Below, one piece after another: positions 5,162 to 32,162 of a stretch of DNA of 35,748 bases. Numbering within the stretch: the stretch's first letter is position 1; the number at the start of each line of letters is the position of its first letter. The notes beneath the pieces were generated by a model. The model was not told where the DNA came from. It searched no databases and saw only the letters and a list, made by a program, of their open reading frames with translations. This stretch comes from Clostridiales bacterium (GTDB lineage: Bacteria > Bacillota > Clostridia > Christensenellales > Borkfalkiaceae): contig SVIN01000018.1 of assembly GCA_015069495.1 (NCBI GenBank), positions 1 through 35,748 of the forward strand. Reading direction: 5' to 3'. The translations under genes were made by a program, and so were the position numbers.

Positions 5162-5194
5162 GGGGGCATGTACGCGATGAAAATAAAAAATGAA
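5162..5194 (+). repeat. Dispersed CATGTACGC motif, copy 1 (start of birA)
   Basis: GGGGGCATGTACGCGATGAA followed by an A-rich tail. It supplies two in-frame ATGs (5168, 5177) for the biotin ligase gene and a G-run 10 nt before the second. Confidence 0.65.
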
Positions 5195-5878
5195 GCAAAA
5201 CGCGTTCACTTTGACACCCTGCCGTCCACGCAGGATTATGCCAAAGAAAAACGTGCGGATGGGCAATCGTTGATTGTGACGGCAACCTCGCAAAGCGGGG
5301 GGAAGGGGACGAAAGGCAGAAGTTTTTCTTCCGCGGTCGGCGGAGTATATTTGTCCAGGCTGACCTTTTATGAAGAGTTTCCCGCAAAGCATGCGTTTTT
5401 GATTATGGCGCACGCGGCAACCGCGGTGTGCGAAACTTTACGTTTTTATGGATTGAACCCTTTGATTAAATGGCCAAACGACGTTTGGGTGAACGATAAA
5501 AAAATCTGCGGGATATTGATTGAAAACGTGTTTTCGGGCAGTGAAATTTCCTCCTCGGTGGTGGGGATTGGGTTAAACGTGTACAATCGATTGCCTGAGG
5601 ACTTGTACCCGATTGCCACTACGATGCAAGAGGCTTCGGGGAAAAGGTACGAAGTAGAGGCCGTTACGGCACGGTTGATTGATGAATTAAACAAACCGCG
5701 CGGTATGGATGAATATCGCAGATATATCGGTTACATGGGTAGGCAAGCCACCTTGATTTTGGGGGATGAACGCATACCTGCTACCCTCGTTTGCGTGGAC
5801 GATGAGGGCGGGTTGACGGTGGAAATAGACGGAACAAAGCGCCGATTGACGGCGGGGGAAGTGTCCGTAAGGATATAG
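5168..5878 (+). CDS. birA: Biotin--[acetyl-CoA-carboxylase] ligase, catalytic domain only
   Basis: This 236-residue enzyme activates biotin with ATP and attaches it to a carboxylase lysine. The sequence shows STQDYAKEK, a biotinoyl-AMP loop in the variant form GGKGTKGRSFSS, IKWPNDVWVNDKKICGILIE and VVGIGLNV, then a short C-terminal beta domain. The N-terminal winged helix of regulatory BirA is absent, so it should not repress transcription. The start is uncertain: ATGs at 5168 and 5177 both lie inside a dispersed repeat, and the G-run is better spaced for 5177. It sits between recX and the NAD(P)HX repair gene, 8 bp before the latter. Confidence 0.93.
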   Translation: MYAMKIKNEAKRVHFDTLPSTQDYAKEKRADGQSLIVTATSQSGGKGTKGRSFSSAVGGVYLSRLTFYEEFPAKHAFLIMAHAATAVCETLRFYGLNPLIKWPNDVWVNDKKICGILIENVFSGSEISSSVVGIGLNVYNRLPEDLYPIATTMQEASGKRYEVEAVTARLIDELNKPRGMDEYRRYIGYMGRQATLILGDERIPATLVCVDDEGGLTVEIDGTKRRLTAGEVSVRI

Positions 5879-5886
5879 GTGATGAT

Positions 5887-7389
5887 ATGTATATACTGAC
5901 CAATGCACAAATGCGCGAAGCGGATCACTACACGATTGAGGAATTGGGAGTACACTCGTTACTCCTAATGGAACGTGCGGGGACTGCGCTCGCGGATGAG
6001 GCGGAAAAGATGTCGCCAAACGGTAAAATCGTTTGCCTTTGCGGCGGCGGGAACAACGGCGGGGACGGATTTGTCTGCGCGCGTATTTTGAAGAGCCGCG
6101 GCCGTGAGGTTGAGGTGGTTTGCAGTGCGGAAAATTTTTCAGCGGATTGCCGAGCCAACATGGAAAAATGGTTGAGCTTGGGCGGTGAAATTTTACCCGA
6201 ACTGACCTATGGTTACGGGCTGATTGTCGATTGTTTGTACGGTACGGGTTTTCACGGCTCGTTGTCGGGGGCGGATGCGGAAAACGTTTCGCGGGCTTTG
6301 CGCTTAAGGGAAAACGGAGTGAAAATTTTATCGGCAGATATTCCCTCGGGGGTCAACGGTGACAATGGTCAAGTGCTTGGCGTGGTTATGACAGCGGATA
6401 AAACGCTGTGTATTGGCGAAATCAAGGCGGGGGTTCTCTTGGGCGACGGTATTGACCATGCGGGAAAAATTCAGCGCGCGGATATTGGTATTGAGGTGAA
6501 AGACGGCGTGGGGCTTGCACAGTTTATCAATCGAGCGTATGCGCGGGAAATTTTACCCAAACGCCCTCGGTATTCACATAAAGGGAAATACGGCCGTGCG
6601 GCAATTGTCGCAGGCAGTGAAACGTATATGGGTGCGGCATATCTTTCCGCGTCGGCTTGTTTGCGCGCGGGAGCAGGGTATACCACCTTGTTTGTGCCGA
6701 GTGCGCTGGTGCCTGCGTTCGCGTTAAAAGCACCTGAGGTGCTGTTAAAAATATCAAATGAGGGCACCATGTATGCGTTTAATGCATCCGTCATGTCTGC
6801 TTTACAAGAATATGATTGTGTGGCATACGGTATGGGTATGGGTGTGAGCGAGGACGTTGCCAGGGGCGCGGCTTGGTTGCTGTTACAATATCAAGGAAAA
6901 TTGATTTTGGATGCGGATGGGTTGAACAGCCTTGCCTGCTACCATCATGATTTGCCTGCCCTGTTCCGTACGAAAAAATGCGACGTATTATTGACGCCGC
7001 ATGCAAAAGAGTTTTCCCGTTTGTCGGGGTTGGGGCTTGAGTATATTACTTTGTGCGGATTGGTGCAGCCGAAAGAGCTTGCACAAACCTTAGGGGTAAA
7101 TATTTTATTAAAAAATGCGGTGTCCGTGATTTCGGACGGCGCGCGGGTTTCCGTCAACGCTTCGGGTTGCTCGGGACAAGCCAAGGCGGGCAGCGGCGAC
7201 GTGTTGGCAGGCGTGATTGCAGGGCTGTGCGCAATGGGGCTTTCCGCCTTTGATGCAGGGGTATTGGGCAGTTACTTGACAGGGAAAGCGGCAGAGTTCG
7301 CTTCGGAGACGGTCGGGGAGTATTCGATGACCGCAAGCGACGTCATTGCATACCTGGGTAGGGCATTTTTATATTTGACCGAGGTGTAA
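5887..7389 (+). CDS. nnrDE: Bifunctional NAD(P)HX epimerase and dehydratase
   Basis: This 500-residue enzyme repairs hydrated NADH and NADPH. Residues 1-210 are the YjeF-N epimerase domain (MREADHYTIEELGV, LCGGGNNGGDGFVCAR, DCLYGTG, SADIPSGVNGD). Residues 225-500 are the ribokinase-like dehydratase domain (HKGKYGRAAIVAGS, LDADGLN, LLTPHAKEFSRL, and the AGSGDVLAGVIAG catalytic loop). The length matches fused NnrD/NnrE proteins. It is probably cotranscribed with birA. The segment encoded at 6761-6785 resembles the dispersed CATGTACGC motif, with no obvious effect on the protein. Confidence 0.95.
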   Translation: MYILTNAQMREADHYTIEELGVHSLLLMERAGTALADEAEKMSPNGKIVCLCGGGNNGGDGFVCARILKSRGREVEVVCSAENFSADCRANMEKWLSLGGEILPELTYGYGLIVDCLYGTGFHGSLSGADAENVSRALRLRENGVKILSADIPSGVNGDNGQVLGVVMTADKTLCIGEIKAGVLLGDGIDHAGKIQRADIGIEVKDGVGLAQFINRAYAREILPKRPRYSHKGKYGRAAIVAGSETYMGAAYLSASACLRAGAGYTTLFVPSALVPAFALKAPEVLLKISNEGTMYAFNASVMSALQEYDCVAYGMGMGVSEDVARGAAWLLLQYQGKLILDADGLNSLACYHHDLPALFRTKKCDVLLTPHAKEFSRLSGLGLEYITLCGLVQPKELAQTLGVNILLKNAVSVISDGARVSVNASGCSGQAKAGSGDVLAGVIAGLCAMGLSAFDAGVLGSYLTGKAAEFASETVGEYSMTASDVIAYLGRAFLYLTEV

Positions 7390-7394
7390 GCCAA

Positions 7395-7631
7395 TTATTT
7401 GTATCCCCAAATACGTATCGCAACCGAGGTTGCCAACATTGCGAAACCGAAGATAAGATAGTAGCGCGGAAAGGGACTGACGAGGGCGGTGGTCAAGGTG
7501 AGTACCGAGGCAGTTAAAAAAGGTTTTGCATTTTTTCGGGAAAACCACAGCTGCAAACGACGTTGGCGTTTGTTTTCGCTTGTTTCCTCATGGGGGTATT
7601 TTTCGGGCAGAGCGTTGCGTTCTTTCAACAT
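7395..7631 (-). CDS. C-terminal piece of a frameshifted membrane protein
   Basis: This is a 78-residue reading frame beginning MLKERNALPEKY, then a basic stretch, then two membrane helices (about residues 38-55 and 58-75). The frame is open upstream of this ATG and reads LTGNEVYAMLKERNALPE. That text directly continues the end of the preceding 160-residue frame (RFQIRV) if one -1 shift is allowed at about 7650-7655. No convincing ribosome binding site precedes the ATG, so it is more likely part of one longer gene than a separate gene. Function unknown. It converges on nnrDE, 5 bp apart. Confidence 0.55.
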   Translation of the reverse strand: MLKERNALPEKYPHEETSENKRQRRLQLWFSRKNAKPFLTASVLTLTTALVSPFPRYYLIFGFAMLATSVAIRIWGYK

Positions 7632-7651
7632 AGCGTATACTTCGTTACCCG

Positions 7652-8134: not shown

Positions 8135-8169
8135 ATTTTGATTTTTGACGGAAAAGCGGTCTGCTATAC

Positions 8170-8226: not shown

Positions 8227-9372
8227 ATGAAAATTGGGATTTTCGGCGGGTCGTTTGACCCTGTGCATAAGGAACACGTACGTTTTGTCCGCGCGGCAAT
8301 CGATTGTCTGCGTTTGGATAAAGTGTTTGTGATGCCCGCGCATACACCGCCCCATAAACCTTACCGCATACTCTCGTCCGATGCCGATCGTTTGGAAATG
8401 TGCCGATTGGCATTTTCACCAGTACCGCAGGTGGAAATCAGCGATTATGAAATCACGCAGGGCGGGACAAGTTACACCTACTTGACTTGTCGGCATTTCC
8501 GTACCTTATTCCCCGATGCGGAGATTTTTTTCTTGGTCGGTACGGATATGTTGCGCGATTTTCCGACTTGGAAACATCCTCAATCGATTGTCGAGGACGT
8601 GACGGTTGCCGTGTGCGGTCGAAACGATACGGACGGTTGGTGGGATGCGGAACAGAAAATTTTTACCGAGAAATTTGGCAAATCGTTCGCGCGGGTGGAT
8701 TACAACGGAGAGGACGTGTCTTCGACCAAAATTCGCGTTTTGGCGGGGGCAGGTATGCGTTTAACGGATTTTTTGGATGAGAAAACCGCTGGATATATCC
8801 GCGGGAAGGACTTATACAAAATTCCAAATGCGGACAAAGCGTTGGCGTTGGAGAAAACCGAACGCCAAGCGCACAGTATCCGTGTTGCCAACCTTGCCGC
8901 GGCGCGCGCATTGAAATTAAAAATACCTGAACGGCAGGCAATTGCCGCCGCGTTATTTCACGATTGTGCAAAAAATTTATCTCCCGACAGCCCGTATCTG
9001 GAAGGGTTTATTCCGCCTGATATTTGGGGTGAGGTCCCGAAATCCGTTTGGCATCAATATGCAGGCGGGTTCGTTGCAGAGCATGTTTTTGGCGTGGCGG
9101 ACGAGGACGTGTTGAACGCGGTACGCTATCACACCAGCGGTCGGCCGAACATGAGCGAGTTGGAAAAATTGATTTTCCTTGCCGATATGTTGGAAGAGGA
9201 GCGCCGTTACGAGGGCGTGGATATGCTTCGACGGTTGTTTTGGCAGGGTGAAAGTTTAGACGAGTGTTTGGAGACGGCGTTGTTTGAAACGTTGAAATTT
9301 TTAGAAACAAAAAAAGCGGACGTTTATCCGCTGACACAACAAGCATATTTATTTTATAAAAAGGAAAGGTGA
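8227..9372 (+). CDS. nadD: Nicotinate-nucleotide adenylyltransferase fused to a YqeK-type HD phosphohydrolase
   Basis: This 381-residue fusion joins two proteins that are usually separate neighbours. Residues 1-197 are NadD, which makes deamido-NAD from nicotinate mononucleotide: GIFGGSFDPVHKEHV carries the HxGH-like nucleotidyltransferase motif (here HKEH), VMPAHTPPHK binds substrate, FFLVGTDML follows, and VSSTKIR matches the usual ISSTxIR. Residues 205-381 are an HD domain of the YqeK type: HSIRVANLAA, LFHDCAKNL, RYHTSGRPNMSELEKLIFLADMLE. YqeK enzymes are known to hydrolyse diadenosine tetraphosphate. The next gene, rsfS, is 4 bp away, the usual nadD-yqeK-rsfS order. Confidence 0.93.
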   Translation: MKIGIFGGSFDPVHKEHVRFVRAAIDCLRLDKVFVMPAHTPPHKPYRILSSDADRLEMCRLAFSPVPQVEISDYEITQGGTSYTYLTCRHFRTLFPDAEIFFLVGTDMLRDFPTWKHPQSIVEDVTVAVCGRNDTDGWWDAEQKIFTEKFGKSFARVDYNGEDVSSTKIRVLAGAGMRLTDFLDEKTAGYIRGKDLYKIPNADKALALEKTERQAHSIRVANLAAARALKLKIPERQAIAAALFHDCAKNLSPDSPYLEGFIPPDIWGEVPKSVWHQYAGGFVAEHVFGVADEDVLNAVRYHTSGRPNMSELEKLIFLADMLEEERRYEGVDMLRRLFWQGESLDECLETALFETLKFLETKKADVYPLTQQAYLFYKKER

Positions 9373-9376: not shown

Positions 9377-9763
9377 ATGGCAGAAATTAGCAGTAAGGAT
9401 TTGGCAATTTCGGTATGTAAAGCATTGGCGGATAAGCGCGGTAAGGACATCGTGGCTTTGTACGTGCGTGAAAAGACTGACCTTTGCGATTATTTTGTAA
9501 TTGCAAGCGGCAGCAATGCCCCTCAGATTCGCGCGATGGGGGAAAGAGTGGAAGAATTGATTGAAAGAGAACACGGCTTGGTGCCGTCCCGCACCGAGGG
9601 TGTACGCGACGGTCGTTGGGCGGTTGTGGATTACGGTGACGTTATCGTGCATATTTTCAACGATGAAACCCGTTTGTTCTACCATCTCGAACGCTTGTGG
9701 GCGGACGGCGGTAACTTGCAGAAATTTGACGAACAAGCGGAAGATTTGGTCGCAAATTCGTAA
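9377..9763 (+). CDS. rsfS: Ribosomal silencing factor RsfS
   Basis: This 128-residue protein binds L14 on the large subunit and blocks subunit joining in starvation. Family features: DIVALYVREKTDLCDYFVIASGSNAPQIRA (shown in two parts, about residues 24-54), then GVRDGRWAVVDYGDVIVHIF and RLFYHLERLW. The AAAGGAAAGGTGAG ribosome binding site overlaps the end of the nadD fusion, so translation is probably coupled. The gene order nadD-yqeK-rsfS is standard in Firmicutes. The next gene converges from the other strand. Confidence 0.95.
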   Translation: MAEISSKDLAISVCKALADKRGKDIVALYVREKTDLCDYFVIASGSNAPQIRAMGERVEELIEREHGLVPSRTEGVRDGRWAVVDYGDVIVHIFNDETRLFYHLERLWADGGNLQKFDEQAEDLVANS

Positions 9764-9790
9764 AAACATGAGGGCAGGTATGTGTTGAAG

Positions 9791-10081: not shown

Positions 10082-10150
10082 ACGGACAGTATACAGCTTT
10101 TTTGCTGTCATAATATGGAAAATGCAGGTTTAAAAGGGCTAGGTTTGTCG

Positions 10151-10156
10151 TATAAT
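10151..10156 (+). promoter_or_regulatory. -10 box placed for a leaderless DeoC-like mRNA
   Basis: TATAAT ends 6 nt before the ATG at 10163, which would put transcription start at or beside the start codon. A matching -35 is weak. Confidence 0.45.
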
Positions 10157-10162
10157 CAAGCT

Positions 10163-11086
10163 ATGGAAAACGTGGAAACAAAAAACAATGAAAATGATTC
10201 TACCGAGGAAAAAGGCTTAGAAAACGACGGGAAGCTGTTGTTGACGGCTACGGATATAGAGGAATATTACTGCTATAAAAAGCAGAAAAAGATTGGCGAA
10301 ATTATGGACGCCTTATCCAAAACGGAAGGGGTGTTGGGGGAAACGGACGACGTGGCAAGGGCGGTGGAGCGCGCTTCGAGGATTCGTCAAGTTGCGCTCA
10401 GGCTTACGCCCACGCATTTTGCGCGTTCGAAGGGGTATTTTGTCCATGGGAAACTTGCGGTTGATTGTTGTGTCGGCGGTGATGGGGAGGTTTTACCACA
10501 GGTCAAAGCATACGAAATGAAGGTTGCGCGGAAAATGGGCGCGAAGGAACTGACGGTGGCGTTGACGCCTTCGTTGGTGGATGGATGTCGGTATACGGAA
10601 CTTCGCAGGGAAATGAAAATGATGAGACGTGCCGCGGGGAAACGCGTGTGGAAGGTATGGGTGGATAAACAATACCCCTATACGACCTTGATGCGCCTTG
10701 CGCGATTGGCTTCGGAAGCGGGGGCTGATTATTTCAGCGTCCCCTATTTTGCGGGTTGCGAGCAGTTGCGGTATGAGTTATACCGCGGTTGCCGTTTGGA
10801 AATTTTAGGGGTGGAAACGCTTGGTGAATTGAAGAAAATGACGGCTGCGGGCGTGGGTAGAATTGTTACCGCGCGCGGTTATGAACTGTACACGCAATGG
10901 ATGCAGGAAGCGGATAAGATACGCTATATACCCCCGAAAAAACAGTCTCTTACGATGGAAACACCCACTATGCAAACGCAGAAAAATGAAATGCAAGAGG
11001 GGGATGTGCAGGAAGAGAAAATAAAAGAATCGGAAGAGGATTATCAAGCTCGATTGGAGAAAACGGAGTTGTTTAAATATCTATAA
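10163..11086 (+). CDS. Degenerate deoxyribose-phosphate-aldolase-fold protein
   Basis: This protein of about 307 residues follows the DeoC barrel in order. ALRLTPTHFARSKGYF corresponds to VCVNPxYV, KLAVDCCVGGDGE to the VIGFPxG strand, VKAYEMKVARKMGAKELTVAL to the KxxExxxAIxxGAxEID helix and strand, SEAGADYFSVPYF to KEAGADFVKTSTGF, and GVGRIVTARGYEL to GATRIGTSSG. The Schiff-base lysine of KTSTGF is absent (SVPYF), and the lysine of the following strand is replaced within LEILGV. It is therefore unlikely to be an aldolase. Residues 1-45 and the last 45 are charged and low complexity. The start at 10163 is preferred over 10115 because TATAAT lies just before it. Function unknown. Confidence 0.7.
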   Translation: MENVETKNNENDSTEEKGLENDGKLLLTATDIEEYYCYKKQKKIGEIMDALSKTEGVLGETDDVARAVERASRIRQVALRLTPTHFARSKGYFVHGKLAVDCCVGGDGEVLPQVKAYEMKVARKMGAKELTVALTPSLVDGCRYTELRREMKMMRRAAGKRVWKVWVDKQYPYTTLMRLARLASEAGADYFSVPYFAGCEQLRYELYRGCRLEILGVETLGELKKMTAAGVGRIVTARGYELYTQWMQEADKIRYIPPKKQSLTMETPTMQTQKNEMQEGDVQEEKIKESEEDYQARLEKTELFKYL

Positions 11087-11116
11087 AGAAACCGCGCAAA
11101 TCTGCGCGGTTTCTTT
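11085..11116 (+). terminator. Intrinsic terminator after the DeoC-like gene
   Basis: A perfect 14-bp stem, AAAGAAACCGCGCA (11085-11098) with TGCGCGGTTTCTTT (11103-11116), and a 4-nt loop. The left arm overlaps the stop codon. Dispersed motif copy 2 follows within 5 nt. Confidence 0.9.
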
Positions 11117-11120
11117 ATAC

Positions 11121-11153
11121 GGGCATACCATGTACGCGTTGAAAATGAAAAAC
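11121..11153 (+). repeat. Dispersed CATGTACGC motif, copy 2
   Basis: GGGCATACCATGTACGCG, then TTGAAAATGAAAAAC. This is the fullest copy and lies in intergenic DNA between a terminator and the cwlD promoter. Confidence 0.7.
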
Positions 11154-11158
11154 ATTGG

Positions 11159-11187
11159 GTATATTCTTAGTAGACCGAACATATAAT
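11159..11187 (+). promoter_or_regulatory. Sigma-E-like promoter of cwlD
   Basis: GTATATT (11159-11165), 14 nt, then CATATAAT (11180-11187). The B. subtilis sigma-E consensus is KMATATT-N13/15-CATACAAT; here 6/7 and 7/8 positions agree. The ATG at 11193 is only 5 nt beyond. Confidence 0.6.
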
Positions 11188-11192
11188 AGGGT

Positions 11193-11897
11193 ATGAAAAA
11201 GACGATATTTGCGCTGTGTATGGCGGTGGTAGTGGTATTTTCGACGGCGGTTGGGTTATGTGTGCAGGTGTTGGGTTCTCCGCGGGCGGCGTCGGTGTTT
11301 GACAATGCGTTGTGCGTGGTGTTGGATGCTGGACATGGCGGGATTGACGGCGGAGTTGTCGGGAAAAATACGGGGATTAAGGAAAGTGATTTGAATCTCG
11401 CAATTGTATACAAATTGAAAACTGCATTGGAAGATATGGGGTTTCAGGTAGAGTTGACTCGCAAGACGGAAGCTGGGTTATATGGTACGACAGCGAAGGG
11501 TTTTAAAAAGCGGGATATGCAAAGGCGGAAGGAGATTATCGAGAAAGCCGATCCCGCGCTGGTGATTTCCATTCATCAAAATTATTATCCAGCGCGCGGT
11601 ACGCGCGGCGGACAGGTATTTTACAGTAAGGAACAAGAGGGAAGCGGAAAATTAGCGGTTGGATTGCAAGGAAAATTGAATGCTTTATACGCCAAGGAAG
11701 GGGCGCGGGCACGTGTGGCAACCAGCGGGAAATTTTTCATGTTAGAGTGTGCCGATTGTCCTTCGGTGATTGTGGAGTGCGGTTTTTTATCGAACGCTGA
11801 TGACGAGCGGTTGCTTTCCAATGCAACGTGGCAACAGGTATTGGCGGAAACCTTGGCGGGCGGGGTGATGGAATATTTTTCCGACGTATCGGCATGA
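11193..11897 (+). CDS. cwlD: Germination-type N-acetylmuramoyl-L-alanine amidase CwlD
   Basis: This 234-residue exported zinc amidase is expected to cleave peptide side chains during spore cortex synthesis so that muramic-lactam can form. Residues 1-28 are a signal or anchor helix. The Amidase_3 domain shows VVLDAGHGGIDGG (zinc His), KESDLNLAI (zinc Glu), LVISIHQN (zinc His) and VIVECGFLSN (catalytic Glu). The length matches CwlD, with no extra wall-binding domain. The start is preceded by a sigma-E-like promoter ending 5 nt before the ATG. An AGGG is present but too close for a normal ribosome binding site. Confidence 0.9.
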   Translation: MKKTIFALCMAVVVVFSTAVGLCVQVLGSPRAASVFDNALCVVLDAGHGGIDGGVVGKNTGIKESDLNLAIVYKLKTALEDMGFQVELTRKTEAGLYGTTAKGFKKRDMQRRKEIIEKADPALVISIHQNYYPARGTRGGQVFYSKEQEGSGKLAVGLQGKLNALYAKEGARARVATSGKFFMLECADCPSVIVECGFLSNADDERLLSNATWQQVLAETLAGGVMEYFSDVSA

Positions 11898-12500: not shown

Positions 12501-13220
12501 ATGAAAACGGAAGGAAGAAACGCAGTTATCGAACTGCTGAAAACGGACAAAAATATTGATAAAATTTTATTGGAAAAGGGCGCGCAAGGTTCGCTTGGTT
12601 TGATTTTTGCGCAGGCGCGCAAGAAAAATATCCGCGTGCAGTTCGTGGATAAGCAGGTTTTGGAAAAGGAAAGCGAAACCAAACGCCATCAAGGCGTTAT
12701 CGCGTACACGACCGATTACGAATATTATGACCTCGATGAAATTATTGCCGAGAAAAAGAGTGAAAAAGGCGGGTTTGTGGTGTTGTGTGACGGCATTGAA
12801 GACGTGCACAATCTTGGCAGTATCATTCGTGTGGCAGAATGTGCGGGCGCGGACGGCGTGGTTATCCCGAAATCGGGCAGTGCGTCGGTAACGGAAGCAG
12901 TGATTCGTATCTCCGCGGGTGCGGCTGAACATATGAAGGTTGCCAAAGTACCCAACCTCAACCAAGCGGTTGAAAAATTGCAGATAGAAGGGTATTGGGT
13001 ATACGCTTTGGAAGCGGGCGGCGAGGATATCTACAAGGAGAATTTCTCGGGTAATGTTGCCTTGATCGTTGGCGGTGAGGACAGCGGTGTAAAACGCTTG
13101 ACCAAGGAAAAATGTGATAAAATTTTGTCCATTCCTTTGCAGGGGCAAGTCAATTCGCTGAACGCATCGGTGGCTTTGGGTATCGCGGCGTATGAGGTCG
13201 TAAGAAATCGGTTGGGTTAA
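12501..13220 (+). CDS. rlmB: 23S rRNA 2'-O-ribose methyltransferase of the RlmB/TrmH family
   Basis: This 239-residue SPOUT methyltransferase is expected to methylate a guanosine in 23S rRNA using S-adenosylmethionine. An N-terminal L30e-like substrate-binding domain (residues 1-75, starting EGRNAVIELL) is followed by the knotted catalytic domain. Its three motifs are ILCDGIEDVHNLGSIIR-like (seen as LCDGIEDVHNLGSIIRVAE), IVGGEDSGV and IPLQGQVNSLNASVALGIA. The length is normal. GAAAGAGGAAAA precedes the start. It lies between mrnC and sigH, the conserved Firmicute order, though the NYN-domain gene often found here (yacP) is absent. Confidence 0.94.
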   Translation: MKTEGRNAVIELLKTDKNIDKILLEKGAQGSLGLIFAQARKKNIRVQFVDKQVLEKESETKRHQGVIAYTTDYEYYDLDEIIAEKKSEKGGFVVLCDGIEDVHNLGSIIRVAECAGADGVVIPKSGSASVTEAVIRISAGAAEHMKVAKVPNLNQAVEKLQIEGYWVYALEAGGEDIYKENFSGNVALIVGGEDSGVKRLTKEKCDKILSIPLQGQVNSLNASVALGIAAYEVVRNRLG

Positions 13221-13222
13221 AA

Positions 13223-13255
13223 GGGCATACCATGTACGAGTTGAACGCTAAAAAA
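13223..13255 (+). repeat. Dispersed CATGTACGC-type motif, copy 3 (start of sigH)
   Basis: GGGCATACCATGTACGAG, then TTGAACGCTAAAAAA. It differs from copy 2 by one base in the first 18. Its ATG (13232) is the sigH start codon. Confidence 0.65.
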
Positions 13256-13809: not shown

Positions 13810-15555
13810 ATGGCATATTTGGCATTATACCGTATGTTTCGACCGACGACGTTAAACGACGTTGTGCGTCAGGAACATATCGTGACCGTATTGAAAAATC
13901 AAATTGACACGGGCAGGATAGGACATGCCTATCTATTTTGCGGACCGCGCGGTACGGGTAAAACGAGTATCGCGAAAATTTTCGCTGCGGCAATTAACTG
14001 TGATACGCCCGTCAATGGTTCGCCGTGCGGTAAGTGTGAGCGCTGTAAGGCGTTGAAAGATCCGTCCAATTTGGACATCACGGAAATCGACGCGGCATCC
14101 AACAATGGCGTGGATGAAATGCGCGATTTGCGCGAAAAGGTGCAATATCCACCCGTTGCGGGTAAATACAAAGTATTTATCATCGACGAAGTCCACATGC
14201 TTTCACCAGGTGCGTTCAATGCGTTGCTGAAGACGTTGGAAGAACCGCCTGCGCATGCCGTGTTCGTGTTGGCTACTACCGAATCGCAAAAGATTCCTGC
14301 GACCATCTTGTCTCGCTGTATGCGGTTTGATTTTAAGTTGATTCCACAAGGTGATTTGGAAGACCGCTTGCGCTTTGTATTTGATCAAATCGGGAAAAAG
14401 TACGATGATGAAGCGATTGCGGCGATTGCGCGCGCGGGTGCGGGAAGTGTCCGTGATATGTTGTCGGTGGCAGATACCTGCGTATCGTACGCAAGTGGGA
14501 AATTGACCTATGCGGACGTTACGACGGTGCTTGGCAATACCGATTTTTCCGCGGTGGCTTCACTGTGTAATGGGATTTTGCAGGGGGATACAGGTTCAGC
14601 GTTTGAGAAAACGGAAGCCTTCCTCGCCGCAGGGAAAAGCGTGGGAATGTTGTTGAAAGACGTGATGAATTTCCTCAATGCATGCGCGGTTGCAAAAACT
14701 TGTCGGGATGGGAAAACGATTTTGGCGTTTCCTGATGCAATGTACGGTGAAGTGGCAAACGTTGCCAAGGCAACGGATGGACATCGATTGCTCCGTGTGA
14801 TGGAAATTTTTGCGCGTGTGGAAACGGAGTTGAAGTATTCGACTTCTCCCCGTATCTTATTTGAAACGGCAGTTTTGAAGGCTTCTATGCCACAAGAAGA
14901 TTATGACATTGAAAGCTTGATTTCACGTATTGCGGCGTTGGAAAAACAGATAGCCGAAGGTAATTTTACCGTAAATGCGGGGGGCATGTCTGCGTTGAAT
15001 AACAAAATTGTACCCGCGAAGGCGGAGCCGATAAAACAAGAAACACCCCCGCCGAAAGCGGAAGTGAAGGTGGTGAAAGAGGAATTCGAACCGATATTCG
15101 ATGCTCCGCCCGATGATGAACAAACGGGTGGTAACGTGTACTTTGGCGGATTTGAACCGCCCGCGCCCCCCAAAGTGAAAGAGGTGGAAAAACCTGCTCC
15201 CGCGCCCGTGAAAGCGGTAAAACCGACTGTTGGCGGCGGTGGAAAGGCGACCTTTGGCGGGTTCTTGCGCACGATTCGAAAGATAGCGCGCAACGGCGTA
15301 TTGTTGACTTTGTGTATGGATTTGGACGGGGAATACGACGGCGACGTGTTTGCACTGTATACGACCAGCGACACGATTTACCGTTCGTTGACCAAGCCCG
15401 AACATTATGCATTGATAGGACAAGCGTTTGCGGAAATGGGTTTGACGGATGGTCAATTTGAAATCCGTTTGCGCGGTAAGCAGTCGGATAATTTTCAAAA
15501 AATGGTAAACGAAATTAAAGGTACGTTTGAAGGCGTGCCTGTTGAAATAAAATAA
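13810..15555 (+). CDS. dnaX: DNA polymerase III subunits gamma/tau
   Basis: This 581-residue clamp-loader ATPase begins with an AAA+ module: GPRGTGKTSIAKIFA (Walker A, about residue 38), the zinc cluster CDTP...CGKCERC, IIDEVHMLSPGAFNALLKTLEEPP (in two parts, Walker B) and ATTESQKIPATILSRC (sensor 1 and arginine finger). The domain III collar runs to about residue 365. A Pro/Lys/Glu-rich linker (about 395-475) leads to a tau-like C-terminal domain. A ribosome binding site TTGAGGT overlaps the sigH end. The linker segment NAGGMSALNNK is encoded by DNA close to the dispersed motif. ebfC and recR follow in the usual order. Confidence 0.96.
   Translation: MAYLALYRMFRPTTLNDVVRQEHIVTVLKNQIDTGRIGHAYLFCGPRGTGKTSIAKIFAAAINCDTPVNGSPCGKCERCKALKDPSNLDITEIDAASNNGVDEMRDLREKVQYPPVAGKYKVFIIDEVHMLSPGAFNALLKTLEEPPAHAVFVLATTESQKIPATILSRCMRFDFKLIPQGDLEDRLRFVFDQIGKKYDDEAIAAIARAGAGSVRDMLSVADTCVSYASGKLTYADVTTVLGNTDFSAVASLCNGILQGDTGSAFEKTEAFLAAGKSVGMLLKDVMNFLNACAVAKTCRDGKTILAFPDAMYGEVANVAKATDGHRLLRVMEIFARVETELKYSTSPRILFETAVLKASMPQEDYDIESLISRIAALEKQIAEGNFTVNAGGMSALNNKIVPAKAEPIKQETPPPKAEVKVVKEEFEPIFDAPPDDEQTGGNVYFGGFEPPAPPKVKEVEKPAPAPVKAVKPTVGGGGKATFGGFLRTIRKIARNGVLLTLCMDLDGEYDGDVFALYTTSDTIYRSLTKPEHYALIGQAFAEMGLTDGQFEIRLRGKQSDNFQKMVNEIKGTFEGVPVEIK
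14979..15006 (+). repeat. Motif-like copy inside the dnaX linker
   Basis: GGGGGGCATGTCTGCGTTGA, then ATAACAAA. It differs from the dispersed consensus in 2 bases of the core and falls in the unstructured linker, where an insertion would be tolerated. It may be coincidence. Confidence 0.35.
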
Positions 15556-18948: not shown

Positions 18949-19089
18949 ATGCGAAAAAAATAGAATATTTTCTTTTTTGAACGCGCAAAATATGTGCATG
19001 GAGAAAATCAAGGAACAAAACATGGACGGCAGGACGAGGGACGAGCGGGAAACTTGCTTCCCTTCTGCTTGTCAAAATCGTAAAATGAA

Positions 19090-19119
19090 GGGGGCATGTA
19101 CGCAATGACGGGAAAAAAT
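19090..19119 (+). repeat. Dispersed CATGTACGC motif, copy 4 (start of spoVAC)
   Basis: GGGGGCATGTACGCAATGAC, then GGGAAAAAAT. Its two ATGs (19096, 19105) are both possible spoVAC starts. The 130 bp upstream hold no promoter I can defend. Confidence 0.65.
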
Positions 19120-19557
19120 CGGCAAAATTACAACAAGAATTATATTGCGTACGTGCATTCGTTTGACCCACCTACACAGCATTTTAAAAACTGCTTCCGC
19201 GCTTTTTTGGTGGGGGGATTGATTTGCTGTGTGGGTCAGTGTATACGCGAAATTTTGGAAAAGGCGGTCGGGTTATACGGTGATGAACTGTCTGCGGCGG
19301 TCAGTATTCTGTTGATTTTATTTGGAACGCTGTTGACGGGGTTTGGTGTATACGATCGCATTGGTCGGTATGCGGGCGCGGGGTCGATTGTGCCCATTAC
19401 GGGGTTTGCCAATAGCGTAGCTTCCCCTGCGATAGAGTTCAAAACAGAAGGGTTGGTGTATGGTTTGGCGGCAAAGATGTTTATCGTGGCGGGACCTATT
19501 ATTGTGTACGGCGTGCTTGCGGGCGCGGCGGTTGGTATCATTTATTTGTTTTTATAG
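19096..19557 (+). CDS. spoVAC: Stage V sporulation protein AC
   Basis: This 153-residue inner-spore-membrane protein belongs to the channel that moves dipicolinic acid into the forespore and out at germination. A soluble head (NYIAYVHSFDPPTQHFKNC) leads to four or five membrane helices; the loop YAGAGSIVPITGFANSVASPAIEFKTEG (about residues 91-118) is the family signature. The start could be 19096 or 19105, both inside a dispersed motif; the G-run fits 19105 better. spoVAD follows 12 bp downstream. Confidence 0.93.
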   Translation: MYAMTGKNRQNYNKNYIAYVHSFDPPTQHFKNCFRAFLVGGLICCVGQCIREILEKAVGLYGDELSAAVSILLILFGTLLTGFGVYDRIGRYAGAGSIVPITGFANSVASPAIEFKTEGLVYGLAAKMFIVAGPIIVYGVLAGAAVGIIYLFL

Positions 19558-19569: not shown

Positions 19570-20568
19570 ATGCAGACAATTTTTTTTGATAAAAAGCCGC
19601 GCTTGGCGGCAACGGGTACCATTGCGGGGCCTAAAGAATGCGCGGGCGTGGTGGGAAAATACGTAGATAAAACCTTGGAAGATGATATGTTTGGGGAAAG
19701 TACCTACGAAAAAGCAGAATGTAAAATGTTGACGTATGCCATTCGACAAGCAATCCGCAATGCAGGTGCGAAAGAAACGGACGTGGATATGCTGATTTCG
19801 GGGGATTTGCTCAATCAAATCATTTCAGCATCTTTCGCCGCGCGGGATTTTGACGTTCCCTTTTTAGGGGTGTATGGGGCGTGTTCGACTTTGGCGGAAA
19901 GCATTGCCCTTGCTTCCGCGCTAATCAATGCAGGGTATTACAAAAAAATCGTTGCGGCGACGGGCAGTCACTTCTCGTCCGCAGAACGGCAATACCGCTA
20001 TCCTTTGGAACTTGGTAATACTCGTCCGCCCCAATCACAGTGGACGGTTACGGGGGCTGGTGGGGTATTCATCGCAGACATGGGTGCCTCAAATTCCTCC
20101 ATCGCGGTAGAGTGTGCCACCTTTGGAAAGGTGGTGGATTTTGGGATTACGGACGTGAATAATATGGGTGCGGCAATGGCCCCCGCGGCGGCGGACACCA
20201 TTTTGACCCACCTCAAGGATACGGGGCGTGAAGCGGGGTATTACGACCTGATTGTGACGGGGGATTTGGGTGCGTTAGGTTCGCGTATTTTAAAAGACTT
20301 GACGTGGGAAAAAGGTGTGGAAATCGGTGGAAATCACGTGGATTGCGGGGAGATTGTTTACAACGTAATCGAGGATGAATTTCAAGGCGGCAGCGGTGCG
20401 GGGTGCAGTGCCGTGGTGTTTGGGTCATATTTATTCGACCGATTGAAAAAACGGGAATTGAATCGTGTTTTATTGTGCGCGACTGGCGCGTTGCTTTCCA
20501 CTGTATCAAGCGGACAAGGGGAAAGTATTCCGTGTATTTGTCATACCGTAGCGATAGAAAATGTGTAG
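19570..20568 (+). CDS. spoVAD: Stage V sporulation protein AD
   Basis: This 332-residue thiolase-fold protein binds dipicolinic acid for the SpoVA channel. Hallmarks: the start TIFFDKKPRLAATGTIAGPKE, a YGACSTLAES segment at the nucleophile-elbow position, GSHFSSAERQYRYPLE, WTVTGAGG and a C-terminal GSGAGCSAVVFGSY. The length matches the family (about 330-340). The ribosome binding site is GGTGGAAGG. It lies between spoVAC and spoVAEb, 9 bp from the latter. Confidence 0.96.
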   Translation: MQTIFFDKKPRLAATGTIAGPKECAGVVGKYVDKTLEDDMFGESTYEKAECKMLTYAIRQAIRNAGAKETDVDMLISGDLLNQIISASFAARDFDVPFLGVYGACSTLAESIALASALINAGYYKKIVAATGSHFSSAERQYRYPLELGNTRPPQSQWTVTGAGGVFIADMGASNSSIAVECATFGKVVDFGITDVNNMGAAMAPAAADTILTHLKDTGREAGYYDLIVTGDLGALGSRILKDLTWEKGVEIGGNHVDCGEIVYNVIEDEFQGGSGAGCSAVVFGSYLFDRLKKRELNRVLLCATGALLSTVSSGQGESIPCICHTVAIENV

Positions 20569-22885: not shown

Positions 22886-23931
22886 TGCAAAGTTTGGCGA
22901 AGCTCCTGTAAAATCCGTGCGTTCCCGCTGTGGAAATCGCTGTCGAGCAACCGTTGGCGCATTTCCTCGTCGGAGAAGGCTTCTTCAATGGTTTGCGGTA
23001 AAGTAAACAAAAAATCCTGCTTTAATACCTTGCATAAGCCCTTGGCTTGAAAATATGCCGCATTTTCCGTTTGATCACCCCGAGTTTGACCTTCCAAGGG
23101 GACGAGGATTGCGGGCTTTTTTAAGGCGAGTAGCTCAAATACTGTGCCTGCTCCTGCGCGTGAAATTACAAGGTCTGCACAAGCGTACGCCATACCCATG
23201 TCTGCGATGAATTCAAATTGTCGGTAGTTTTTAAGGTTATTTTCAACCAAATTTCCCTTTCCGCAAACGTGGAGAATGAGATATTTCTCCGTCAGAGTTT
23301 TTAGGTGTTTGCGCAATGCTTCATTTATGGGCGCGCTGCCGCTTCCGCCACCAAAGATAAGAAGGACTTTCGCTTGAAAGGGTATGGAGAATTTTTTACG
23401 CGCTTCCGCTCTTGTGGCGTTAAAAATCGAACGGCGCAAGGGGGCACCGCTGTACGTGCCGTGGGATAAGCGTTTTGCCGTTTCGGGGAAAGAAGTGAAA
23501 ACGCGTTGGCAACTGCGGGCGGTCAGACGGTTGGCAAGACCTGGCGAAAAATCACTCTCGTGCGCAAAACACGGAATATGCAATTTACGCGCGGCGGCAA
23601 TCACGGGCAAAGCAACGTACCCGCCTTTGGAAAATACGGCATGGGGTTGAATATCTTGCAGAAGAACCTTCGCTTGCGCTTTGGCGCGGTGTAATTCTAC
23701 AGGGATATGCAGATTGCGTTTCCATGCGTTCCACGATTTTCCGCGTATCAATTTGGGGCAGGTGATTTCGTAAAAAGGGATACCCCAATCGGCGATTAAA
23801 CTCTTTTCAATTCCGCCCGTGCCCATGTAACAAATTTCAACGTCGCCGTCTGACAACAGTTCTTCTATCAGTGCGATATTGGGGATAACGTGTCCTGCAC
23901 TTCCCCCGCCCGTAAACAATATCTTTTTCAT
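22882..23931 (-). CDS. murG: MurG-type UDP-GlcNAc transferase, probably sporulation-linked
   Basis: This 349-residue GT28 glycosyltransferase adds GlcNAc to lipid I to give lipid II on the inner membrane face. Motifs: FTGGGSAGHVIPNIAL (G-loop 1), VFSKGGYVALPVIAAARKL, AHESDFSPGLANR, LLIFGGGSGSAPIN (G-loop 3), FIADMGMAYACADLVISRAG and the UDP-GlcNAc site AILVPLEGQTRGDQTENA. It lies outside any division cluster and is coupled to yunB. The upstream region carries a sigma-E-like promoter, which points to a mother-cell MurG for cortex synthesis. Whether another murG exists elsewhere cannot be seen here. The ATG is 6 nt after the -10, with no ribosome binding site. Confidence 0.9.
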   Translation of the reverse strand: MKKILFTGGGSAGHVIPNIALIEELLSDGDVEICYMGTGGIEKSLIADWGIPFYEITCPKLIRGKSWNAWKRNLHIPVELHRAKAQAKVLLQDIQPHAVFSKGGYVALPVIAAARKLHIPCFAHESDFSPGLANRLTARSCQRVFTSFPETAKRLSHGTYSGAPLRRSIFNATRAEARKKFSIPFQAKVLLIFGGGSGSAPINEALRKHLKTLTEKYLILHVCGKGNLVENNLKNYRQFEFIADMGMAYACADLVISRAGAGTVFELLALKKPAILVPLEGQTRGDQTENAAYFQAKGLCKVLKQDFLFTLPQTIEEAFSDEEMRQRLLDSDFHSGNARILQELRQTLQ

Positions 23932-24531: not shown

Positions 24532-24580
24532 GGAAAAATTTAAAAACCGCGTACCCATGTACGCGGTGAAATAAAAAAAT
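24532..24580 (-). terminator. Terminator of the WYL regulator gene built on dispersed motif copy 5
   Basis: The perfect stem ACCGCGTAC-N4-GTACGCGGT (24546-24567) is followed on the minus strand by TTTTTAAATTTTT. Its plus-strand right half and flank read CATGTACGCGGTGAAAT, then AAAAAAATC, the dispersed motif. Confidence 0.8.
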
Positions 24581-29102: not shown

Positions 29103-29116
29103 TTTTTGACAATAGA

Positions 29117-29237: not shown

Positions 29238-31547
29238 TTATACCGTGATATTTTTAAACAATCGCACCGCAATCGCGGTCATATCGTCTTTTGCGATACC
29301 GCCGTAAGCTTCCAAAGCGCGTTGTAGAAGCGTATCGACAAGCTGTTGAGGATTATGGGTGGGGGTGGCGCGCAGGGCTTCATATAGGTCAGTGGTCGAA
29401 CCAAACGCATCAGCAATTCCGTCGCTGATAAACAGCAATACGTCGTTTTCATTGAGGGTGTGTTCGGTGGAATTGGGGCGGATGGCATCCAAAATGCCCA
29501 ATGGCAGAGATGCGTTCTCCAACACTTTCACAGTGGTATCCGACAGAATAAACCCTGCAGGAGAACCAATTTTCACCACGTCGGCATTACCGCTGTTCAA
29601 ATCTACCACTGCGATATCCACGCAAGCAAAACTTTCTTCCTTGTTAAAAGTCAGCAATTTATTCACGGTGGCAAGTACCAACTCCGACGGCATTTTTGCC
29701 CGATAAAAACTTTCAAGCAAAGAGATGGTCGTTTCGGAAATACGGCGGGCGTATTCTCCGCTTCCCATACCGTCCGATAGGGCAACCATGAAATGACTTT
29801 CATCAATTTTGATGACCGAATGCGTATCCCCGCTTGCGGTTTCTCCATCTTTACGGGCGCATGCAACGCCAAACGCCGCATCATAATGGGGCTTTTTCTT
29901 AAGAATACAGCAAAATTTATCACGGCTGAGCGCAAGACGTTGGGAGATCATCATTTCCACCCCGAACAAATGACTGGCAATTGCCGCAATTTTTTTTACG
30001 TCGGCACGCCCGAAGGTAATCAAGGAAAGGGTAAGGTTGTCTTCTTCACCGTAAATCATCACTTCCGAACAGACAATCCCCGCGCCCAACAACGCCACGT
30101 TCAGCGCGCGCTCTTTATCGGTGTATACACGCAAAGGCTCGCTTTGTTCCAAAGCCAGGTTGCGTAAAATTTCACTGACACCTTTGGCTTGGTTGGCAAG
30201 CATTGCCCGCCCCGATGCAGCGTTGTTGGCTTCGGTCATGTACTTGGTATAATCACGCAGTTGCCGATTCACCGCATATAGCAATTCGCTTTGCTTGTTA
30301 CACACTTCGCAAAGCGCTTTTGGGATATCAATTAGGCTGGCTTTCCCCTTCATGCACCCAATTTCTATCAAACTTTGCAGGGCGGATTCTCCCGCTTTTT
30401 CTTGACAGAGTGCATAATCAGGACATTGTTGGCATACTTCATTGGTCACGCAAGTGCTAATATACGCACGCGCGGAATGGTCAGCTTCTTCGTTGCCCAA
30501 CGATTGAAATGCATTTTCAATCTCGCGGAAGACTGCGGAAATTTCAAACAGCTGTTCCCCGATGGCCGAGCGGTTGCGGTTGATGGCGATGCGGGATAGG
30601 TGTTTTTCGCGGTAGAAGACCAAGCGGTTTTCCATTTCACGGATGATAGGGGTGGGGATAAGGATGAACAGCAGGGCGGGAAGCATAACAGATAAAATAG
30701 ATTGTATCAATAAATCGTTTGTGTAACCATACAATCCGTCCGAATAGCCGTAAGCGAAAAAGACGGCTAACAGAGCGCAGACGGCGGCGATTCGACCCGA
30801 TTTCATAAATAGGGATAAGGCGATACCGTACACGAAAAAACGCGCGGGGGAAAGGTTGCAAACCAGAAAAGGCGGCAGGGAAAGTACAAAGGCACAAATG
30901 CACGCGCTGGCATCTTTGGTGATACAAGTAAACAGCAGTAAAATAAAAAATGAGGCACCCATGTATGCGTTCACACTGAAAAAACGGCAAAATCCTACCC
31001 CAATCAACACCAGCATCAGTAAGGAAAAAATCATTTCATCATCGCGCAAACGGCATCGCAATAGCTTGTGTAACAAGGCTTTCATGGCAACGGAAAATAT
31101 GGCGGATAATAGAAAAATGATGGATGCAATCAACACGCGTTGTGTGATGCTGTCCAAGGTGAAATCTCCCCACGGCAAGGTATAAGGGGAAAAAGGGGCA
31201 AGCGCAAAGAACAGCCCTAAGGAGATGGAAAGGGTAAATAGAGGCAGGAACCCCGTTTTAAAAAAGTCCTTTTGCTTGTACCGCTTTTGCGTGTAAAAGC
31301 TGATGATAAGCAAGAACGCTTGCCCTGCATACAGCAACAACAGGGTCGGGTTGGGAGATGGCAGGGCTGATAAAAGATAAAACAGCGCCGACCACCATGG
31401 GGACAATCCCGCGCTTGCCATTCCGTAAAAAAGGGGAAGCGCAAAGGGTTCGTGATTTTCTCCGATTTGAGCAAGGCAAAACATGCCAAATCCGCAAGCG
31501 ATATGTAAAAATACTTGTGTGAAATCGATTGTTTTTCGTATGCGCAT
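29238..31547 (-). CDS. spoIIE: Stage II sporulation protein E, membrane PP2C phosphatase
   Basis: This 769-residue protein is expected to dephosphorylate SpoIIAA and so activate sigma-F in the forespore. About ten membrane helices fill residues 10-310. A central region (about 320-540) contains a Cys-rich stretch (CVTNEVCQQCPDYALCQ) typical of Clostridial SpoIIE. The PP2C domain has FMVALSDGMGSGEYA, FACVDIAVVDLNSG, DVLLFISDGIADAFG and KDDMTAIAVRLF with metal-binding aspartates. The length is near the usual 800. A CGGAGG ribosome binding site gives the start. The spoIIA operon is not in this window. Confidence 0.95.
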   Translation of the reverse strand: MRIRKTIDFTQVFLHIACGFGMFCLAQIGENHEPFALPLFYGMASAGLSPWWSALFYLLSALPSPNPTLLLLYAGQAFLLIISFYTQKRYKQKDFFKTGFLPLFTLSISLGLFFALAPFSPYTLPWGDFTLDSITQRVLIASIIFLLSAIFSVAMKALLHKLLRCRLRDDEMIFSLLMLVLIGVGFCRFFSVNAYMGASFFILLLFTCITKDASACICAFVLSLPPFLVCNLSPARFFVYGIALSLFMKSGRIAAVCALLAVFFAYGYSDGLYGYTNDLLIQSILSVMLPALLFILIPTPIIREMENRLVFYREKHLSRIAINRNRSAIGEQLFEISAVFREIENAFQSLGNEEADHSARAYISTCVTNEVCQQCPDYALCQEKAGESALQSLIEIGCMKGKASLIDIPKALCEVCNKQSELLYAVNRQLRDYTKYMTEANNAASGRAMLANQAKGVSEILRNLALEQSEPLRVYTDKERALNVALLGAGIVCSEVMIYGEEDNLTLSLITFGRADVKKIAAIASHLFGVEMMISQRLALSRDKFCCILKKKPHYDAAFGVACARKDGETASGDTHSVIKIDESHFMVALSDGMGSGEYARRISETTISLLESFYRAKMPSELVLATVNKLLTFNKEESFACVDIAVVDLNSGNADVVKIGSPAGFILSDTTVKVLENASLPLGILDAIRPNSTEHTLNENDVLLFISDGIADAFGSTTDLYEALRATPTHNPQQLVDTLLQRALEAYGGIAKDDMTAIAVRLFKNITV

Positions 31548-31557
31548 AAAAAAACCT

Positions 31558-31600
31558 CCGCAACGGTACTTCCACCATTATAAGGTCGTTACCATTGCGG
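31558..31600 (-). promoter_or_regulatory. Inverted repeat around the -10 box of spoIIE
   Basis: CCGCAACGGTA (31558-31568) and TACCATTGCGG (31590-31600) form 11-bp arms with one mismatch. They enclose minus-strand TATAAT (31577-31582). No good -35 is seen at 17 or 21 nt, and no clear Spo0A box was found, so activation by a bound protein is likely. The start-proximal arm overlaps the ribosome binding site. Confidence 0.5.
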
Positions 31601-31638
31601 AATTTGTGTTTTTTTGGGGGATGGGGGATGTTTTTGGC

Positions 31639-31989
31639 TTATTGATTGACGGGGAAACCAAGGCTGATTAAAATGGCACGGTTGACCCGCAACATGGTGG
31701 CGGGGGGCAGTTCGCCAATCCGTTCTTTCAATCGCCGTTTGTCAAGGGTGCGGATTTGTTCTAACAAAATCACGCTGTCTTTGGCTAAGCCGTACGCTGA
31801 GGGCAATTCGATATGGGTGGGCAGTTTTGCTTTGTTGATTTTACTGGTTACAGCCGCCGCAATAATGGTTGGGGAATACTTATTCCCGATATCGTTTTGC
31901 ACAACCAAGACGGGACGGATACCGCCCTGTTCGCTACCCACTACGGGGGATAAATCTGCATAATACAGCTCGCCGCGTTTTACATTCAT
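31639..31989 (-). CDS. mazF: MazF/PemK-type endoribonuclease (NdoA-like)
   Basis: This 116-residue toxin-family RNase is expected to cut mRNA at short sequences. The family pattern is clear: [45 protein letters not shown] (shown partly), [19 protein letters not shown] and a C-terminal LISLG. The length matches B. subtilis NdoA. No antitoxin gene lies upstream: the 170 bp before it hold only the pgi terminator and a dispersed motif. GAGGTG precedes the ATG. A TATACT at 32029-32034 is a possible -10 without a clear -35. Confidence 0.92.
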
Positions 31990-32110
31990 GATACACCTCT
32001 TTTGAAAACCGAATACTCTCCTTGCTATAGTATATGTAATGGCAAGAGGAAGTCGTTCGCGCCTCTGTTAAAAGTATTTCCCAAGCTTCTGCGGTTTATA
32101 CAAAAACGGT

Positions 32111-32144
32111 AAAAAAAAGTACCCCCAAATACATTTGAGGGTAC
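32111..32144 (-). terminator. Intrinsic terminator of pgi, joined to a dispersed motif
   Basis: GTACCCCCAAAT (32119-32130) and ATTTGAGGGTAC (32133-32144) pair with one mismatch. On the minus strand TTTTTTTT follows. The outer GTAC is shared with motif copy 6. Confidence 0.85.
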
Positions 32145-32162
32145 CATGTACGCAATGAAAGG
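32139..32162 (+). repeat. Dispersed CATGTACGC motif, copy 6
   Basis: GGGTACCATGTACGCAATGA, then AAGG. It overlaps the pgi terminator at one end and reaches the pgi stop codon region at the other. Confidence 0.65.

Follow-up and report, generated by a model that had tools for sequence, protein, structure and literature searches.

A genus-restricted dispersed motif with phased A/T arms in Borkfalkiaceae, a candidate docking site for a DNA-wrapping protein

The 35,748-nucleotide contig SVIN01000018.1 of a Clostridiales bacterium (family Borkfalkiaceae, assembly GCA_015069495.1), referred to over its whole length as the window, carries multiple copies of a short motif spread over functionally unrelated loci. 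The motif is a real, genus-restricted dispersed element, and its architecture fits no family known to us or found. Its core lies at the centre of two long A/T-phased arms that mirror each other. In our best reading, the motif would work most like a strong gyrase site, and we give an even chance to the broader proposal that the copies are docking sites for a DNA-wrapping or supercoil-placing protein. What we infer from the pattern in the DNA is the wrapping of the arms by a protein, the handedness of its path and the function as such.

Abundance and anatomy of the motif

An initial annotation had listed six copies, at 5162, 11121, 13223, 19090, 24546 and 32139. All six are present and read as described, with the exception of the copy at 13223, which is correctly positioned but carries ATGTACGA instead of ATGTACGC. 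They had been placed between genes; the positions are real, but three of the six (5162, 13223 and 19090) overlap the first codon of the next open reading frame (ORF). Allowing up to one mismatch, CATGTACGC occurs 16 times in the window compared to 6.65 expected, and none of 100 shuffles reached 16. G000, the draft genome to which the window belongs (1.74 Mb in 50 contigs, 76% complete), contains 62 matches to the 15-mer CATACCATGTACGCG with up to two mismatches and 3 to the reversed pattern; a 19-mer of the motif gave 44 matches compared to 0 for its control. The genome-wide count proposed in the annotation as a check thus lies far above the controls and not at chance level. The flanking blocks, whose conservation had been proposed as a further check, are both kept, as AAAYG followed by G-rich bases and as TGAA.

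A weight matrix was built from a seed set and then refined. On eight same-genus genomes (1,625,458 bases) it yielded 378 sites, compared to 10 in the same DNA reversed. The matrix was refined on the same sequences it counted, a circularity of which the reversed-sequence control and the fixed-pattern counts are free. Within the window it finds 17 copies, 13 on the plus and 4 on the minus strand, so that the original six were only a sample. Twelve of the 17 are centred within called genes, three of them at the very gene start. Among the most over-represented 9-mers, pieces of the motif come top in G051, rank behind an unrelated repeat in G000 and are absent from the top words in G055. Among words of 9 to 11 bases, the strongest over-representation in G000 is that of GTGACGAGTATTGG-like words, which are unrelated to the motif and perhaps stem from a repeat array within one or few genes. 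Rfam, at gathering scores, gave no match in the window. No report of the motif was found in the literature looked at; the subscription literature was mostly outside reach, so absence in print is not established.

The core spans 27 bp, from -9 to +17, with position 0 at the T of TACCATGTACGCG, and amounts to about 25.7 bits in total. It consists, in order, of AAAYG, loose G-rich bases, a variable triplet, CAKGTAYGCG and WTGAA. Among the 378 sites the triplet is GGG in 172, TAC in 94 and ACC in 43, the other 69 being mixed. The small inverted repeat noted in the annotation is present in the TAC subtype, which is able to form a small hairpin, but missing from the commonest subtype, GGG, which cannot; being limited to 94 of 378 sites, it is not the defining feature. 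A hairpin RNA or terminator was rejected as the general function because the commonest subtype has no hairpin, even though a few copies do form terminator-like hairpins. Tandem pairs were seen six times at a distance of 31 bp and once at 32 bp. Two inverted pairs in G000 form perfect 35-bp palindromes (contig C39 at about 4430-4460, locus L143; contig C40 at about 20493-20523, locus L269). The former is followed by T-rich DNA and resembles an intrinsic terminator. Overlapping plus and minus matches in G058 and G059 suggest similar inverted pairs.

Phased A/T arms

All arm statistics use sites scored on positions -5 to +17 alone. Averaged around 161 sites picked in this way, the A/T content peaks about every 11.5 bp on both sides, out to about 90 bp and beyond. 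For all 378 sites the phase-locked A/T signal reaches z 22 on the left (-88 to -19) and z 29 on the right (20 to 89), with amplitudes of 0.10 and 0.13, compared to at most 0.017 for motif-piece word controls and random positions. Left and right arms are mirror-symmetric around +4.0 (r 0.94; bootstrap centre 4.02, standard deviation 0.06), which is the middle of the -9 to +17 core. Their period is 11.71 bp (standard deviation 0.04), and a centre of about 35 bp (-13 to +21) remains unphased.

The same phase was recovered in five species taken singly (G000, G051, G069, G024 and G016). It was also recovered for copies lying sense (n=175; z 15.7 and 20.0) and antisense (n=68; 10.2 and 12.4) within genes and for intergenic copies (n=127; 12.0 and 16.3). 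Across the core subtypes the phase is again the same, being weak in the mixed subtype and weaker where copies are few. Flanks of 198 copies in G000 have a pairwise identity of 0.261 in register compared to 0.248-0.253 when shifted; as judged from these sequences, the flanks are not related by descent.

In a blind scan for 7-mers with phased flanks, the 14 rows listed for G000 (15,398 words) and for G051 (11,956 words) all consist of fragments of the motif, on either strand. The same scan gave no word above 3.2 in G055, G072, G001, G057 and the sister-genus genome G098, and thus no sign of an alternative dialect in low-copy species. Its power is limited, however, and such negatives are weak, since no motif word emerged in G043 and G053 either, which hold 14 and 13 matrix matches in 200 kb each. 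A weak A/T period of 11.1-11.4 bp exists genome-wide in G000, G051 and G055, including the copy-poor G055, and such a weak background period is described as common in bacterial genomes (PMC4132750). By our own estimate from autocorrelation, the arms are two to four times stronger than this genome-wide period.

Gene context and strand

For 370 sites the gene context was classed using a simple in-house gene caller; G055 was omitted and one contig-end site dropped. Of these, 243 lie within called genes, 175 in sense (163 expected) and 68 in antisense orientation (164 expected). Intergenic copies are enriched in co-directional gaps (93 vs 30 expected, 3.1x) and convergent gaps (26 vs 6.5, 4.0x), and hardly in divergent ones (8 vs 6.9, 1.2x). 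An earlier, poorer gene caller gave the same picture (2.8x, 5.0x and 1.4x, respectively). A stop codon lies 10-20 bp from the middle of the core at 33 sites, with 7.2 such distances expected. Most copies lie within genes or after stops, and a ribosome-binding or start signal was therefore rejected as the general function. The view that the copies are not shared operon signals is supported.

Replication strands were judged by the local GC skew of draft contigs and not from a mapped origin. The presumed leading, G-rich strand carries 259 of 358 copies (p ~1e-17), including 96 of 123 intergenic ones. The bias implied by six plus-strand copies is thus real but partial. On lagging-side genes, 22 copies follow the strand of the gene and 14 the leading strand (older gene calls), so coding direction counts too. 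Evenly spaced markers were rejected, since among eight contigs only C41 shows copies somewhat more evenly spaced than random, the rest being random to clustered.

Gain and loss of copies

To follow individual positions, 30 orthologous loci around the window gene at 5887-7389 were compared, own genome included; not every locus reaches every position. Above-threshold copies recur at the same few positions across these loci, with few elsewhere. At the first site within ORF 5887-7389, a gap crosses the motif in two of 27 aligned orthologues (L160 and L178), neither with a length pattern expected of the motif, and three further orthologues show a one-residue gap several residues beyond it. At the second site in this ORF the core is gap-free in 27 alignments, and only the tail length after it differs. 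At the junction at 13219, compared by eye, locus L184 has an equally long coding start with different bases where the motif stands elsewhere. Because motif-less orthologues align through the two coding sites almost without gaps, the sequences indicate that copies at the sites examined are gained and lost by base substitution and not by insertion; an inserting element is therefore excluded as the general source. Some in-gene copies may be kept partly by constraint at the protein level.

Distribution across genomes

With up to one mismatch, CAKGTAYGCGTTGAA has at least one match in all 57 genomes of the genus, ranging from 1 (G001 and G002) to 205 (G016), compared to 0 to 2 for controls. Of 297 genomes drawn from the order as a sample, 295 belong to other genera, and these show 0 to 4 matches, like controls; 21 of these 295 are from sister genera of the same family and have 0 to 2. 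A longer 19-mer was found in 19 of 24 same-genus relatives and in one of 16 genomes of other families. The motif is thus a genus-level feature. Matrix matches were absent from 160 kb of G072 and 60 kb of G001, both of the same genus, and from 40 kb of G073 and 80 kb of G098, both of sister genera.

In a viral collection, a 20-base pattern gave one exact match and an 18-base pattern of another subtype none, and a phage origin was rejected on this basis. The single viral-collection copy (L354:1559-1578, GGGGGC subtype) lies on a 4,956-base contig. A plasmid search with one 1.5-kb stretch returned no match. Long stretches of G000 are nearly free of copies (C30 at 0-40 kb, C34 at 60-100 kb and C39 at 20-40 kb) and are possibly recently acquired DNA.

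Comparison with gyrase sites and other wrapping systems

Gyrase wraps DNA in a right-handed sense, so that A/T phasing above 10.5 bp would suit a right-handed path of this kind. In the proposed mechanism, the 27-bp core would be read by sequence and would sit at the dyad, and A/T blocks 11.7 bp apart would let about 100 bp on each side bend smoothly along a right-handed path. The hundreds of copies would form a network of fixed docking sites. Gyrase is the likeliest single binder. The copies, lying after genes and between converging genes, would then be programmed strong gyrase sites at those gene ends where positive supercoils from transcription pile up. The same pattern would also result from a different symmetric wrapping protein or from a supercoil tip being pinned. 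The initial annotation had offered an uptake or chromosome-organising sequence and a binding site as options; both survive, and the symmetric phased flanks favour chromosome organisation in the form of DNA wrapping.

The polar words KOPS and Chi, of about 8 bp and read by translocases or recombination enzymes, are G-rich and biased to the leading strand. The motif shares both properties but differs in its 27-bp core with arms. For the E. coli gyrase motif, a centre of 36 bp is described, flanked by two arms of 47 bp in which the GC content has a period of 10.75 bp and which are symmetric around the cut; cleavage is enriched downstream of transcribed operons and in BIME-2 elements (PMC6379681). 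Periodic arms are also reported for the gyrases of E. coli, B. anthracis and M. tuberculosis alike (PMC12324340). Our motif resembles this motif and strong gyrase sites (SGS; E. coli Topo-Seq, Mu SGS) in its two-fold symmetric periodic arms, its non-periodic centre of about 35 bp, its period above 10.5 bp and its tendency to lie past genes (PMC6379681). Type II topoisomerases are described as sharing the preferences -4G/+8C, -2A/+6T and +1G/+4C (PMC12324340). With the dyad placed at 3.5, four of these six preferences are the commonest base of the motif (-4G, +1G, +6T and +8C; not -2A and +4C), compared to one of six at 4.5.

A number of observations weigh against a gyrase-like site. The gyrase motif is degenerate, whereas the core described here is asymmetric and holds about 26 bits, unlike the symmetric A2B2 enzyme, and the periods differ (10.75 vs 11.7 bp). 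The phasing declines slowly to about 150-200 bp, with no stop near 65 bp as in the gyrase motif. A 4-bp staggered cut needs a dyad at 3.5 or 4.5, where the mirror correlation is only 0.81 and 0.84, and the 31-bp distance in tandem pairs leaves no room for two gyrases simultaneously. In E. coli, the attraction of gyrase past operons is described as not hard-wired in sequence (PMC6379681). The spacing of copies is irregular. Among the word controls, some of those comprising thousands of positions go up to z 7.3, although their amplitude is one-tenth that of the arms. Finally, the same two topoisomerase subunits are present in motif-less sister genera, and GyrA shows no evident genus-only insertion among the rows listed, some of which are in the wrong frame. 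A change in GyrA was accordingly set aside as the cause, and gyrase alone does not explain the genus restriction.

It is because of such points (core, period, slow fade, tandem pairs, sister-genus subunits and GyrA) that we leave the wrapping proposal at an even chance. Gyrase itself as the binder takes the larger share of this, though on its own it stays below an even chance; the remainder goes to a different wrapping protein or to the pinning of a supercoil tip. Stretches of curved DNA of about 70 bp or longer have been described to position a supercoil (PMC6301789), which is similar to the arms seen here. The positions described there lie upstream of promoters (PMC6301789), whereas divergent gaps are the least enriched class for our motif, which moreover has a conserved core word.

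Tentatively, and with less than an even chance, the copies might represent a new chromosome-organising class: a 27-bp address that arises by point mutation, forms the dyad of a phased stretch of about 200 bp and thereby fixes wraps or supercoil tips. The corresponding hard-wired supercoil map, with sites after genes and polarised along the replication arm, is put forward as equally tentative. If true, this genus, with its hundreds of copies of a strong address flanked by wrapping-type arms, would demonstrate that the placement of supercoils is open to encoding and selection. Such encoding would be testable site by site and would contrast with E. coli, where placement is described as transcription-driven (PMC6379681).

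Alternative explanations

The main rival to a wrapping site is a DNA uptake sequence, i.e., a label of self-DNA that a competence machine prefers and that spreads through point mutation combined with biased uptake, like the DNA uptake sequence (DUS) of Neisseria or the uptake signal sequence (USS) of Pasteurellaceae. The abundance of a long word, which occurs hundreds of times and far above chance both within and between genes, agrees with this idea, as do the substitution origin where examined and the stable positions across species. Copies at ORF starts and terminator-like inverted pairs have both been described for uptake sequences (PMC2346458, PMC7811141, PMC1852404), and the USS, too, has a core with A/T tracts tied to a bend (PMC7811141). 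ComEC is present in all 57 genus genomes, and the window's own genome is among the three with a strong match to a pilus-type ATPase (PF00437).

However, such a strong match was found in only three of the 57 genus genomes (G000, C13 20794-21921; G019, C30; G045, C21), with a marginal one in G047, in drafts that are incomplete. The high-copy genomes G011, G016, G020, G024, G051 and G069 have no PF00437 match or one below the cut-off. The family also covers type II secretion ATPases. Moreover, the strong leading-strand bias seen here, also among intergenic copies, contrasts with the "no general orientation bias" stated for uptake sequences in PMC2346458, a source that also reports an orientation bias inside reading frames. 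Symmetric phased arms out to 100 bp are not described for the USS in the literature looked at, as far as its accessible text goes. The likeness to DUS and USS thus lies in an abundant word in genes and gaps, A/T tracts by the core (USS), inverted-pair terminators and ORFs starting within the word; the differences lie in strand bias, long symmetric arms and the rarity of the ATPase. Taken together, we consider an uptake sequence unlikely. If it were one, this would be equally unexpected in a lineage, probably near Christensenella, that is mostly without the usual pilus motor.

A site for a genus-specific nucleoid or regulatory protein without gyrase-like wrapping, which would nucleate on the core and spread along the phased DNA, appears about equally unlikely. 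The asymmetric 26-bit core, the gradual fading of the phasing, the 31-bp tandem pairs and the genus restriction would all be accounted for. On the other hand, the location of 243 of 370 copies within genes on both strands is unlike ordinary regulator sites, and no candidate protein was found, one gene having been followed up. This gene encodes a 223-aa protein (L252:4758-5429 on C32 of G024) adjoining the densest cluster, six copies in 1.4 kb of G024. Of 65 genus and family genomes searched, 57 gave a match to the protein, low-copy and sister-genus genomes among them; the protein itself gave no family above cut-off. It was discarded as the cognate binder, as it shows no link to copy number. 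Its alignment is split in two at about residues 148-170 in the low-copy genomes G045, G072, G010 and G048 as well as in several genomes of sister genera.

A miniature mobile repeat (REP/RAYT, MITE or solo transposon end), one of the options initially named, is very improbable and largely refuted. The copies are dispersed and enriched between genes, one subtype is palindromic and both tandem and inverted pairs exist, all of which would suit such an element. But copies lie in conserved proteins in sense and antisense orientation and at the same positions in many species, and the near-gapless orthologue alignments through two coding sites gave no clean insertion among 27 orthologues. Each insertion would also need to find phase-locked arms. 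The Y1 transposase domain (PF01797) occurs in 12 of 41 genomes searched and has no match in the high-copy genomes G004, G006, G011, G020, G023 and G024. The alignments and this missing transposase link led to rejection. One full-length Y1 domain, IS200-like by length, is encoded in G000 (C34 72159-72515). REP elements of enterobacteria likewise occur in many dispersed copies. A conserved palindrome, by which REP/RAYT elements are recognised, is not shared by the subtypes, since TAC pairs and GGG does not. BIME-2, which contains gyrase cleavage sites (PMC6379681), and REP differ from the motif, which has no consistent palindrome, shows no insertion where examined, is about two-thirds genic and has no link to RAYT.

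Hardly more credible is an ordinary by-product without a function of its own, i.e., a G-rich word of translation starts or coding sequence that codon usage and GC skew would have multiplied: some copies do double as ribosome-binding region and start codon, and skewed genomes favour G-rich words on one strand, but intergenic copies lie after stops, counts in the 21 sister-genus genomes are at control level, and the phase-locked arms of antisense and intergenic copies refute it as a full account.

Copies in the window

The first core copy (5155..5181, plus strand, score 31.1) lies between ORFs 4533-5156, which we take to be RecX-like, and 5168-5878, presumably biotin-ligase-like, and overlaps the first codon of the latter. 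It recurs in 13 of the 30 orthologous loci, own genome included. Within ORF 5168-5878, an antisense copy (5766..5792, minus, score 25.9) is present in 9 of 30 loci. ORF 5887-7389 contains the two sites aligned above, a sense copy (6756..6782, plus, score 25.2; 18 of 30 loci, nearly ungapped alignment) and a weak antisense copy (7342..7368, minus, score 16.6; 11 of 30 loci, core region gap-free). A copy within ORF 8227-9372 (8738..8764, plus, score 29.4) is present in 12 of 30 loci, and another (9763..9789, plus, score 22.3) directly follows ORF 9377-9763.

Between ORFs 10115-11086 and 11193-11897 stands a copy with an exact CATACCATGTACGCG (11117..11143, plus, score 29.0), and this gap holds a copy in 13 of 30 loci. 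As an example, an arm span of about 100 bp on either side of this core would cover 11031..11231, the arms being an average over 161 to 378 sites and not a property read from this copy alone. At the junction of ORFs 12501-13220 and 13232-13807 a copy overlaps the start codon (13219..13245, plus, score 26.7) and recurs in 3 of 30 loci, own genome included. ORF 13810-15555, which we assume to be DnaX-like, contains a copy at 14973..14999 (plus, score 29.9). A search of named genomes with this DnaX returned distant relatives only, the best being 55% identical, from an uncultured Christensenella.

Further downstream, a copy overlaps the start of ORF 19096-19557 (19083..19109, plus, score 27.4) and another lies antisense within ORF 19570-20568 (20068..20094, minus, score 24.9). 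A weaker copy (23185..23211, plus, score 18.2) is antisense within the minus-strand ORF 22882-23931. Just beyond the stop of the minus-strand ORF 24580-25488 lies a copy (24544..24570, plus, score 19.7) that is a perfect hairpin, followed by a T run on the minus strand. The minus-strand ORF 29238-31547 contains an antisense copy (30948..30974, plus, score 23.9), and one more (32133..32159, plus, score 28.3) lies just beyond the stop of the minus-strand ORF 32163-33596. The last two are found within the minus-strand ORF 33676-35256, one in sense (33904..33930, minus, score 20.7) and one in antisense orientation (34534..34560, plus, score 21.8).

The listed starts of the ORFs at 5168, 13232 and 19096 fall within the motif, and their products begin with MYAM, MYEL or MYAM. 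The true start of these three ORFs may be the second ATG or TTG.

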